This document shows positions 4,455 to 15,773 of a stretch of DNA of 46,261 nucleotides, piece by piece (the first letter of the stretch is position 1; every line of letters starts with the position of its first letter). The notes under the pieces were generated by a model that was not told the DNA's origin, made no database searches, and was given only the letters and a program-made list of their open reading frames with translations. Source of the stretch: Patescibacteria group bacterium (GTDB lineage Bacteria; Patescibacteriota; Patescibacteriia; Patescibacteriales; GWC2-42-12); NCBI GenBank assembly GCA_028703305.1, contig JAQVNC010000005.1, positions 1-46,261 of the forward strand, given 5' to 3'. The translations under genes and the position numbers were made by a program.

Positions 4455-5312
4455 TCATTTTATCTTAATCCTCAATCCATCGCTAAAAATTTTAACTGTC
4501 CCCTTCTCGTCTGTCCTGAAAATTTTCGCGCCGACTCTTTCCAGCCGTTTTATAATCCTTAAGCTTGGGTGGCCGAAATCATTGTCTTTACCTACCATAA
4601 TTACGGCCAGCTGCGGCTTAACGCTTGCCAAAAATTCTTCGCTTGATGAATACTGCGACCCATGGTGAGCGATCTTTAAAACATCAACGCTTAAATCAAC
4701 CCCGCCGGACAATAATATCTTCTCAATTTTTTCGCTCATGTCGCCGGTCAGCAAAAATTTATTTTGGCCGTAAATTAATTTTATGACGATTGAGCTATCG
4801 TTTAAATCAGCTAAAGTTTTATTTAAAAGGCTTTGCTCCGGATATAATATTTCCATTTTTGCCCCTTGGCCTAAATTTATAATTTGTTGTTTATCAATAA
4901 TAGTGAGCGGCACTTTCGTATCGCGCACTAACTTAAGCCAGGCTAAATAATTTGGCGCGCTATGAACCGCGCCGGTATATAAAATTCTTTTTACTTTATA
5001 TCTTTTTAAAACGTCTATTAAGCCGGTAACATGGTCGTCATGCGCGTGCGTTAAAATCATTAAATCAATCTGCTTATCCCACCAAGATAAATTTTCGCCC
5101 AATCTTTTTATCACGGTTTTATCCGGCCCGCCGTCTATCAGCACATTCTGCCCGCCCGGCGCTTTGATTAAAATCGCGTCGCCCTGCCCCACGTCCAAAA
5201 AATCAACTTCCAAATTTTTCGGCGCGCTAAAATATTGCCAAAACAAAAACATAGCCGTAGTGGCCGCGGCTATGCCTAAAATTAATAGTATTTTATATAA
5301 CTTTGCCGGCAT
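4455..5312 (-). CDS. ComEC C-terminal-type metallo-beta-lactamase fold protein
   Basis: LEVDFLDVGQGDAILIKAPGGQNVLIDGG…LTHAHDDHVTGL…IAHHGSQYSS. Confidence 0.85.
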   Translation of the reverse strand: MPAKLYKILLILGIAAATTAMFLFWQYFSAPKNLEVDFLDVGQGDAILIKAPGGQNVLIDGGPDKTVIKRLGENLSWWDKQIDLMILTHAHDDHVTGLIDVLKRYKVKRILYTGAVHSAPNYLAWLKLVRDTKVPLTIIDKQQIINLGQGAKMEILYPEQSLLNKTLADLNDSSIVIKLIYGQNKFLLTGDMSEKIEKILLSGGVDLSVDVLKIAHHGSQYSSSEEFLASVKPQLAVIMVGKDNDFGHPSLRIIKRLERVGAKIFRTDEKGTVKIFSDGLRIKIK

Positions 5313-10847: not shown

Positions 10848-11801
10848 TTATTCGTACCATCTTACAATAACTTGGCCATTGCCGCCGGCTCCACCGGCGC
10901 CACCCTGGCTGGCAACTCCACCGGCGCCTCCGGTTCCTACCGTAACCGTAACATCGCCGCTCACGGCAACCGGATAATCTTCATAACATACGCCACCACC
11001 GGCTCCGCCTCCTCCAGCGCCGCCGCTAGCGCCGCCGCTATACCAAAGCCCGCCGCCACCGCCGCCACCGGCAGCAATACCACCGCTACCGCCAGGAATC
11101 CAACTATCATAGTAATATACTGAATTACTGCCATTGCCACCCTTACCAAAGATACTGCCACCGCCACCACCGCCACCACCGCCATAAGCGGCATATGTAT
11201 AATTTTTACCAGCGCTGCCGCCGGCTCCGGCGCCTGGTTGAGCATTTATGAACACAGGGGGCGTGGCATTGTTGGCAAAGCCTCCGTTGCCGCCAGGAGC
11301 GCCACCGCCGCCGCCTAGCCCATAAGGAAAACCGTGATTTGTACCTCCACCCATACCGCCGCCGCCGCCAACCGCTGTTAAAGACCCAAAAGAAGAATTG
11401 CCTCCGGTAGCGCCATTAGGCCCAAGTCCGCTGGTGTAAGTGCCGGCACCGCCGCCGCCGCCGGCTCCGCACATTGTTATAAAAACAAGATCAACGCCAT
11501 CGGGTTTAGTCCAAGTCCCGGAAGAAGTAAAAATTTGGGCTTGCGGAGTAAGACCCCCGCCCCCTAAACCATTAACCGCGGTTAAAATATCTTCAGTATT
11601 TAAGCTTATATCGCTTGACGGGCCGATTAAGGTATTGATAAATGTCTTTAACAGTCCGGTATCGGTGGCCGGCGAGCCGGTCGGAGCGGCCGTCGGGCCG
11701 GTTATGGCTAGAGCCAGATAAACGCCGCCGACCAAGCCGACGGCGATTAAAAAACCGGTTAATAGTTTAAAAGAGATGAGTTTTAGAATTTTTTTTAACA
11801 T
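10848..11801 (-). CDS. secreted glycine-rich protein
   Basis: N-terminal TM/signal; FTSSGTWTKPDGVDLVFITMCGAGGGGGAG followed by long Gly-rich tract. Confidence 0.75.
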   Translation of the reverse strand: MLKKILKLISFKLLTGFLIAVGLVGGVYLALAITGPTAAPTGSPATDTGLLKTFINTLIGPSSDISLNTEDILTAVNGLGGGGLTPQAQIFTSSGTWTKPDGVDLVFITMCGAGGGGGAGTYTSGLGPNGATGGNSSFGSLTAVGGGGGMGGGTNHGFPYGLGGGGGAPGGNGGFANNATPPVFINAQPGAGAGGSAGKNYTYAAYGGGGGGGGGSIFGKGGNGSNSVYYYDSWIPGGSGGIAAGGGGGGGLWYSGGASGGAGGGGAGGGVCYEDYPVAVSGDVTVTVGTGGAGGVASQGGAGGAGGNGQVIVRWYE

Positions 11802-12709: not shown

Positions 12710-12850
12710 TTATTCTTTATTTACTTTAAAAGTCTTGCGGTTGAAATATTCCGCTTGCTTGCCGTCATTCCACTGCTGAACCGGCCTTAAATATCCAGTT
12801 ACCCTTGAGTAGACTTCACAGGCGGTTCTTTTGGCTTCAATTGGACTCAT
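12710..12850 (-). CDS. separately encoded NrdD C-terminal glycyl-radical domain (46 aa)
   Basis: Manual translation MSPIEAKRTACEVYSRVTGYLRPVQQWNDGKQAEYFNRKTFKVNKE*; SD AAAGGAG before ATG; RVTGYLRP matches class III RNR glycyl-radical motif. Confidence 0.85.
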   Translation of the reverse strand: MSPIEAKRTACEVYSRVTGYLRPVQQWNDGKQAEYFNRKTFKVNKE

Positions 12851-12896
12851 ATGGTTTCTCCTTTATCTAGCTTTAAACAAACTAGATTTTTATTTT

Positions 12897-14966
12897 TTAA
12901 ATTAAAATTTGTTCAACTTCTTTTTCAACTTCTTCTTTAGCCAGATAGCCTATTTCCTCGTCGCACTTCGGGCAAAAAAAGTGTTCGCCCGCCAGATAGC
13001 CGTGCTTGGGGCAAACCGAAAAAGTCGGCGTGATGGTAAAGTAAGGCATGTGGTATTTATTAACTATTTTTTTAACCAAGCTTTTAACCGATTCGGCGCT
13101 GGGCAGAGCTTCACCGATAAAACCGTGCAGAACCGTACCGCCGGTATATTTAACTTGGATGTCATCCTGTAAATCCATGGCTTCAAACAGATCGGCGGTA
13201 TAATTTACCGGCAGCTGGCTGGAATTAGTATAATAAGGCGAGGCTTTGCCGGCCTGAAAAGCTTCTTCGTTGGCCACTAAAATATCCTTGTATTTATCTT
13301 TATCAATCCGCGATAAGCGCCTGGTTACGCCTTCGGCCGGCGTAGCTTCAAGGTTATAAAGATGGTTGGTTTTGCCCTGGAAATCCAAAACTTTGTTTCT
13401 CATGTAATCCATAACCTGCAAAGCGAATTCTTTGCCTTCCGGCGTGGCAATGTTTTTTCTGATTGGCGCGTAATTTAATAAAGCTTCGTTCATGCCGATA
13501 ACGCCGATAGTGGAAAAATGATTATTCCAATAGCCGTTAAAGCGCTGTTTAATATTGTTTAAATAATATTTGGCGTAGGGATAAAGGCCTTTATCGGTTA
13601 AATCTTCAAGCACGGTGCGCTTAACTTCCAGGCTTTCCGAGGCAATCTGCATTAAATTATCCAAACGTTCAAAAAATTCTTCTCTGGTTTTTGATAAATA
13701 GCCGACGCGTGGCAAATTAACCGTTACCACGCCGATTGAACCGGTTAGCGGGTTGGCCGCGAATAAGCCGCCGCCGCGCTTCCTTAATTCCCGATTATCC
13801 AGGCGCAAACGGCAGCACATTGAGCGCGCGTCGTCCGGATTCATGTCGCTGTTAACAAAATTGGAAAAATAAGGAATGCCGTATTTAGCCGTCATTTCAA
13901 AAACTTTAGTAGCTACCGGCGAGTCCCATTTAAAATCGTTAGTAATGTTATAGGTCGGAATCGGGAAAGTGAAAACGCGCCCCTTGGCATCGCCTTCCAT
14001 CATTAATTCGGCAAAAGCCAAATTTATCATATCCATTTCCGGCTGAAATTCTTTATATTTTTCCGGCATAATTTTGCCACCGATAATGACATTTTCCTCG
14101 CCCGTAGTCGCGCCCGGCGTTAAATCCATGGTGATATTGGTAAAAGGCGTTTGAAAACCGACGCGGGTCGGAACGTTAATGTTAAATAAAAATTCCTGGA
14201 GAGCCTGCTTTACGTCTTTATAGCTTAAATTGTCATGCCTGACGAAGGGCGCCAGATAAGTATCAAAGTTGGCGAAAGCTTCGGCACCGGCCACCTCGCC
14301 CTGCAAAGTATAGAAAAAATTAATAATTTGGCCCAAGGCGGTGCGCAAATGCTTGGCTGGTTTGGCTTCAACTTTGCCGGCCACGCCGCCAAAACCGCGG
14401 ATTAAAAGCTCGCGTAAATCCCAGCCGGCGCAATAAGGCGCTAAGAGCTGCAAATCATGCAGATGCAAATCGCCGTTTTTATGGGCTTCTCGGATATTTT
14501 GCGTATAAACTTGGTTCAGCCAATAGCTTGAAGAAATCGCCGAAGCTAAATGGTTATTTAGCCCCTGTAGGCTGTAGCTCATGTTGGAATTTTCTTTAAC
14601 CCGCCAATCGCTTTGTTTTAAATAGCCTTCCATTAATTCGTCCGAATTAATCATGGACTTCATCTCGCGGAGGCGCGCCCGTTGGTCGCGATATAAAATA
14701 TAGGCTTTGGCGGTTTTAATCTGGCGGTTCTTAATTAAAATCTCTTCAACCATGTCCTGCACTTCTTCAACCGCCGGGATGCTGCGGGCGTGGAATTTTT
14801 CATTTATCTGCGCGACCACCTGATCGGCAAACTTTTGCGCCAAAAACTGATCCGGTTTGTTAACGGCTTCGGTGGCTTTATAAATCGCGCTGACCAGCTT
14901 AGCCTTGTCAAAAGGCGCGATTTCGCCGGAACGTTTTAAAATTTGGATAATGGGGATTTCTTGCAT
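12897..14966 (-). CDS. nrdD: anaerobic ribonucleoside-triphosphate reductase catalytic part (ATP cone, core, Zn site)
   Basis: N-terminal ATP cone; C-terminal CPKHGYLAGEHFFCPKCDEEIGYL Zn site; ends EVEQILI without a glycyl-radical motif; start refined to MQEIPIIQIL. Confidence 0.9.
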   Translation of the reverse strand: MQEIPIIQILKRSGEIAPFDKAKLVSAIYKATEAVNKPDQFLAQKFADQVVAQINEKFHARSIPAVEEVQDMVEEILIKNRQIKTAKAYILYRDQRARLREMKSMINSDELMEGYLKQSDWRVKENSNMSYSLQGLNNHLASAISSSYWLNQVYTQNIREAHKNGDLHLHDLQLLAPYCAGWDLRELLIRGFGGVAGKVEAKPAKHLRTALGQIINFFYTLQGEVAGAEAFANFDTYLAPFVRHDNLSYKDVKQALQEFLFNINVPTRVGFQTPFTNITMDLTPGATTGEENVIIGGKIMPEKYKEFQPEMDMINLAFAELMMEGDAKGRVFTFPIPTYNITNDFKWDSPVATKVFEMTAKYGIPYFSNFVNSDMNPDDARSMCCRLRLDNRELRKRGGGLFAANPLTGSIGVVTVNLPRVGYLSKTREEFFERLDNLMQIASESLEVKRTVLEDLTDKGLYPYAKYYLNNIKQRFNGYWNNHFSTIGVIGMNEALLNYAPIRKNIATPEGKEFALQVMDYMRNKVLDFQGKTNHLYNLEATPAEGVTRRLSRIDKDKYKDILVANEEAFQAGKASPYYTNSSQLPVNYTADLFEAMDLQDDIQVKYTGGTVLHGFIGEALPSAESVKSLVKKIVNKYHMPYFTITPTFSVCPKHGYLAGEHFFCPKCDEEIGYLAKEEVEKEVEQILI

Positions 14967-15582: not shown

Positions 15583-15637
15583 TCCATATCTTGTAGTCTT
15601 TGATTTAATTATACCACTAGATATAGTATGGTCAAGT
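15583..15637 (-). promoter_or_regulatory. nrdR promoter with two NrdR-box-like sites
   Basis: TTGACC-N16-TATAAT (minus); boxes CATATCTTGTAGT (~15584) and CACTAGATATAGTA (~15614), about 31 bp apart. Confidence 0.75.
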
Positions 15638-15744: not shown

Positions 15745-15773
15745 TGTCATTCCCGCGAAAGCGGGAATCCAGA
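15745..15773. repeat. dispersed palindrome TGTCATTCCCGCGAAAGCGGGAATCCAG
   Basis: Read directly; similar copies at 1387 and 4405. Confidence 0.7.

Follow-up and report, generated by a model that had tools for sequence, protein, structure and literature searches.

To our knowledge, the radical glycine and the barrel lie on the same polypeptide in all class III ribonucleotide reductases (RNRs) described so far. The locus analyzed here departs from this pattern, which is a matter of architecture rather than of chemistry. One-chain NrdD proteins, such as those of phage T4, Thermotoga maritima, Prevotella copri and Streptococcus thermophilus, share with it the barrel, the ATP-cone, the MCCR class, the Zn site, the RVxGY motif and the NrdG activase. 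What sets the locus apart from these is that the radical loop and the C-terminal tail are encoded as a separately translated chain, and that the tether of 11–16 residues between Zn site and glycine is gone. In the one-chain enzymes the glycyl radical domain must flip out for NrdG (PMC11226230, PMC12662201), and the studies of the P. copri and S. thermophilus enzymes dispute the position of this domain as part of ATP/dATP control (PMC11226230, PMC12662201).

There are two kinds of precedent for RNR catalytic subunits spread over two genes, as is the case here: the split class II RNR NrdJa/NrdJb (PMC9669993), and phage RNR genes, nrdD among them, that are split by introns or inteins (PMC3653736). 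In neither, however, has a stable radical-storage residue been described as a separate small protein, and the present locus has no intron or intein. The other relevant precedent is YfiD (GrcA), a small autonomous protein that supplies the radical glycine to a glycyl radical enzyme which has none of its own, and that is activated robustly only when cleaved pyruvate formate-lyase (PFL) is present (PMC8683613). A search of the open-access literature turned up no free-standing glycyl radical protein that serves NrdD.

The window (the whole 46,261-nucleotide stretch of DNA that was analyzed) encodes what is in every tested respect a class III RNR, save that the radical residue is on another chain. 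We consider it very probable that this is an anaerobic RNR made of two separately translated chains, in which the glycyl-radical loop would be a subunit that NrdG must activate; docking, activation and activity are the inferred parts of this reading.

The nrd cluster of the window

The cluster runs on the minus strand in the order nrdR (15471–14971), nrdD (14966–12897), a 46-aa ORF (12850–12710) and nrdG (12620–11886). The first gene encodes the NrdR repressor (TIGR00244, E 5e-54); 5' of it a consensus scan picked out TTGACC-16-TATAAT at 15608–15635 on the minus strand (11/12 matches), a candidate promoter for the operon. The last encodes a radical SAM activase of the NrdG2 type (TIGR02495, E 8e-63; 211 bits against a cut-off of 131), which would be expected to install the glycyl radical. 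A 317-aa protein with long glycine-rich runs (window 10848–11801, minus strand) adjoins the cluster.

The NrdD core has 689 residues. It comprises an ATP-cone (PF03477, E 1e-19), the catalytic barrel, a finger loop, the Zn site CPKHGYLAGEHFFCPKC and a tail of about 20 residues, and is without the radical glycine. The finger loop, M383 C384 C385 R386, is invariant among 60 aligned sequences, and MCCR marks the described two-cysteine class of NrdD. The protein also matches the PRK08270-type model NF006126 (7–677, 1044 bits, above cut-off). The radical-glycine motif R-V-x-G-Y, here RVTGY, is found only on the 46-aa protein (MSPIEAKRTACEVYSRVTGYLRPVQQWNDGKQAEYFNRKTFKVNKE). On the 562-position NRDD model PF13597 the NrdD core covers positions 1–531 (E 1e-179) and the small protein positions 532–562 (E 3e-10 when searched alone, 2.3e-9 in a whole-genome search), so that the two are exactly complementary. 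In a Pfam scan with E up to 1 the small protein hit PF13597 alone and no PFL-type glycyl radical domain. It has no NCBIfam model of its own, its matches there being without exception to models of full-length NrdD and far under the respective cut-offs, and a PDB sequence search with it gave only chance-level matches, among them NrdD 8p23 at E 1.6.

The first-pass annotation had placed the glycyl-radical domain on the small protein. If the limits of that domain are taken as in P. copri NrdD (PMC11226230), the description holds for the glycine loop and the C-terminal tail, but NrdD keeps the Zn half (CPKHGYL...CPKC). The coordinates and sequence of the small ORF, the 46-nt gap and the Shine-Dalgarno (SD) sequence were all found as that annotation gave them. 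The gap (12851–12896, minus strand) contains the SD sequence AAAGGAG (12858–12864) as well as stop codons: the NrdD frame ends in its own TAA and meets a further TAG and TAA inside the gap, and a TAA in the frame of the small ORF (12863–12865) lies 12 nt upstream of its ATG. With both frames closed by stops, one base gained or lost could not have split a single gene; this, together with the conservation in relatives described below, rules out a sequencing error or frameshift. In such an arrangement NrdD appears truncated and the mini-gene is easily overlooked by annotation.

Does the genome have another RNR to fall back on? The source assembly (925 kb, 98% complete) was searched as a whole. 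It contains no PF13597 match beyond the split pair and none to PF02867, the catalytic domain of classes I and II, for which the same search was positive in 11 of 14 control genomes. The split pair is thus the sole detectable RNR of this genome.

Conservation and distribution of the split

Thirty-three NrdD-bearing genomes of the same order were examined; the genomes used in this analysis as a whole are mostly metagenome-assembled or draft ones. In three of them nrdD is cut at a contig edge. The other 30, whose 3' end is intact, all have the split and an ortholog of the small protein, and none has a fused gene. The distance between the two ORFs varies from 11 to 355 nt over the 33 loci, with the small ORF in each of the three relative frames (9, 14 and 10 loci), and in other lineages the ORFs overlap by 4–46 nt. 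With gap length and frame so variable, a shared recoding signal that would generally join the ORFs, be it one for frameshifting, for read-through or for bypassing, is ruled out. Palindromic REP-like repeats occur in the window (15749–15768) and in the nrdD-to-loop gaps of some relatives (L043, about 5080–5155; L022, L024); they are of the types ATTCCCGC...GCGGGAAT and TCATTGCGAG.

Within the family of the window the small ORF has a pN/pS of 0.15 and by this measure is under strong purifying selection. Twelve positions are invariant among the 33 order-level proteins, including Y-S-R, Gly, P, N, K and E. The SD sequence fared less well: it is present in the window and in the same-genus locus L031, but only 5 of the 33 order-level small ORFs have an SD-like site. 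Overall, 47 of 94 small proteins have one, against 28% in shuffled upstream sequence, and the SD was discarded as a conserved feature.

The gene order nrdR-nrdD-mini-nrdG is conserved. In each of the 25 loci inspected from the order and the CPR, a nrdG gene follows nrdD on the same strand, and nrdR lies upstream of nrdD in relatives wherever nrdR was found. From this order it is a reasonable inference that NrdG would activate the small chain in trans.

Beyond the order, the two-chain form is common across Patescibacteria. Nearly all genomes of the Goldbacteria phylum that have NrdD share it, and it also occurs in Thermodesulfobacteriota. Of 193 Patescibacteria sampled across the phylum, 53 have NrdD; among these, 32 are split (four of these appear as a single match with internal stops and two have an unlinked loop protein) and 21 fused. 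In the Goldbacteria phylum, 19 of the 22 genomes with matches are split and one is full-length; of the other two, one has NrdD cut at a contig edge and one has the small ORF only. Among 77 Thermodesulfobacteriota at least nine are split, several of them on single-contig assemblies, and one further locus is masked by Ns. Only two weak matches for phage copies were found by tblastn in phage records. Two record titles look wrong. L090 is titled as a 'Methylomirabilis' MAG, yet it groups with Goldbacteria, the phylum under which its genome is listed as well; L047 is titled 'Flavobacteriaceae', yet its NrdD tail is that of the Patescibacteria-like L046.

A maximum-likelihood tree was built from 108 NrdD cores, trimmed of the tail. 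It needs at least nine changes between split and fused forms, six of them forced by well-supported branches, although it is a quick tree with a few very long branches and the exact count is approximate. One clade (support 96) unites 42 split Patescibacteria sequences, including that of the window, and has two fused ones nested inside it, which on the tree would most simply be read as re-fusion. Some NrdD frames are very long (about 1000–1560 aa) with interrupted NRDD matches, and some of these are also split (L212, L213; genomes G099, G198, G149). They probably carry inteins.

Unlinked loop proteins and alternative explanations

Not all loop proteins are encoded next to nrdD. In genus g133 of family f36 (G190, G145, G288) NrdD belongs to a different subfamily and breaks off immediately ahead of the radical motif (...CPHCGRLEGDVSFER-LSCGC), and a protein of about 145 aa with FERLRRITGYLVGTLDRWNDAKKAEE is encoded 31 kb off or on another contig (loop proteins L142, L143 and L174, with NrdD L144, L145 and L175). 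In genus g210, also of the Patescibacteria (G320, G240, G294), a homologous unlinked loop protein accompanies a full-length NrdD (L171–L173, with L176, L177 and L179). The Thermodesulfobacteriota G450 and G483 likewise combine a full-length NrdD with an unlinked small protein that matches the type of their own NrdD. At loci L214 and L215 (with L216 and L217; two Thermodesulfobacteriota) the unlinked protein has about 103 aa and ends in a TRVTGYYSKVGSWNNGKR-type radical loop; it is a candidate spare part for NrdD. The arrangements in g133, g210 and G450/G483 look like natural intermediates, and the unlinked loops are the best argument that the loop acts as an autonomous protein. The loop proteins of g133 and g210 also have an N-terminal domain of about 80 residues, for which the motif FD..R...S....A, seen by eye, suggested an ATP-cone origin; neither Pfam nor hhalign (probability 4.9) supported this. 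Some genomes with a small loop gene linked to nrdD have a further, unlinked one: L194 (G336), L229 (G370) and L230 (G379).

These cases bear on the question of whether the small protein of the window could itself be a YfiD-like spare that repairs oxygen-cleaved NrdD, rather than a constitutive subunit. The full-length NrdD with an unlinked protein in g210, and likewise in G450 and G483, fits such a spare in those genomes, and the proteins beside full-length NrdD in G320, G240, G294, G450 and G483 are nearer analogues of YfiD than is the protein of the window; they are candidates for the spares that the YfiD study itself speculated on for other glycyl radical enzymes (PMC8683613). For the window we regard this explanation as very unlikely. 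YfiD repairs a PFL that is normally complete, whereas the split reductase is never made complete: the NrdD core always stops ahead of the radical motif, so the small chain would be needed for any activity. The source genome has no coexisting intact NrdD to repair, no joined NrdD occurs among the 30 intact order-level loci, and the small protein matches the NRDD model rather than the PFL-type domain.

It is also highly improbable that expression yields an ordinary one-chain NrdD from the two ORFs, whether through frameshifting, stop read-through, translational bypassing or splicing. The shortness of the gap in the window and the fact that the ORFs are in frame in some relatives would allow it. 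The range of gap lengths and frames, the palindromic repeats in some gaps, the overlaps in other lineages, the stop codons that close both frames and the unlinked loop protein of genus g133 all speak against it. As for splicing, no element for it was found between the ORFs: a self-splicing intron would not fit into so short a gap, which is without coding capacity and varies in length and frame in relatives. Least credible is gene decay, that is, a broken and non-functional NrdD in an organism that scavenges deoxynucleotides, for although 140 of the 193 Patescibacteria are without any NrdD match, the small ORF is under strong purifying selection, the catalytic and Zn residues are conserved, and the split has been kept across the whole order and beyond.

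The two-chain reading of the first-pass annotation is strongly supported by the conserved split, the purifying selection, the lack of an intact NrdD in the genome, the repeated origin and the distant loop genes.

Chain junction and predicted mechanism

In fused NrdDs 11–16 residues separate the last Zn cysteine from the radical glycine. In split forms the medians are 22 residues on NrdD and 18 on the small chain, the added residues being apparently new material at the ends where docking would be needed. In Goldbacteria-type loci both junction ends are long and helix-like. AlphaFold2 was run on single-chain in-frame read-throughs of two relatives, L090 and L043; the tether partly imposes docking in such models, which accordingly test compatibility. 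The L090 model (mean pLDDT 82.6, pTM 0.76) has a NrdD tail helix (657–681) and a small-chain helix (690–710), with the radical loop after them as a strand-loop-strand-helix, and its closest solved folds are the NrdDs of S. thermophilus, P. copri, T. maritima and T4. In the model of the order-level L043 the linker is disordered, and the radical loop again forms a strand-loop-strand-helix, at moderate confidence and with only about 62 pLDDT on the loop. In the small protein of the window, no docking helix is obvious after the first 10 or so residues.

The two chains probably bind each other, and their complex would reduce nucleotides. NrdD would contribute the ATP-cone, the barrel, the thiyl-radical cysteines and the Zn site, and the 46-aa protein the glycine for the glycyl radical plus a tail crossing the enzyme surface. 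A NrdD dimer would bind a pair of small chains in the region of its C-terminal Zn site, and the RVTGY loop of each docked chain would enter the barrel much as the covalent loop of ordinary NrdD does. NrdG would abstract a hydrogen from the glycine of the small chain, and the radical would then pass to the cysteine of the finger loop, just as it does in the one-chain enzyme. By analogy with YfiD (PMC8683613), it is somewhat more likely than not that the small chain binds NrdD before it is activated; NrdG would then act on the complex rather than on the free peptide. How such an enzyme arose is more speculative. One scenario, which we put forward tentatively, is that detachable radical subunits have evolved repeatedly, and that in some lineages a spare loop protein arises first beside full-length NrdD, which then loses its own loop and leaves the small protein as an obligate, exchangeable radical subunit. 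If the loop is indeed a detachable subunit, oxygen-damaged loops could possibly be replaced and RNR activity possibly controlled by subunit association.

A radical subunit of 46 residues can be synthesized, isotope-labeled, titrated or omitted, and a reaction step that normally takes place within one chain could thus be separated and tested. Because the 46-mer is separable, binding experiments could address flip-out, half-of-sites activation and allosteric coupling, and the disputed position of the domain would become a measurable association.

Two details of the junction remain to be mentioned. A cysteine 8 residues before the radical glycine (window 12815–12817, minus strand) is present in 59 of 62 split but 20 of 30 fused NrdDs (Fisher p 0.0006, with too few independent pairs on the tree for this comparison), a hint of an inter-chain Zn ligand or disulfide. 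At locus L148 (G054) the small protein also carries CAFC ahead of the radical motif; the split there seems to fall inside the Zn ribbon, and the two chains may have a metal ion in common.
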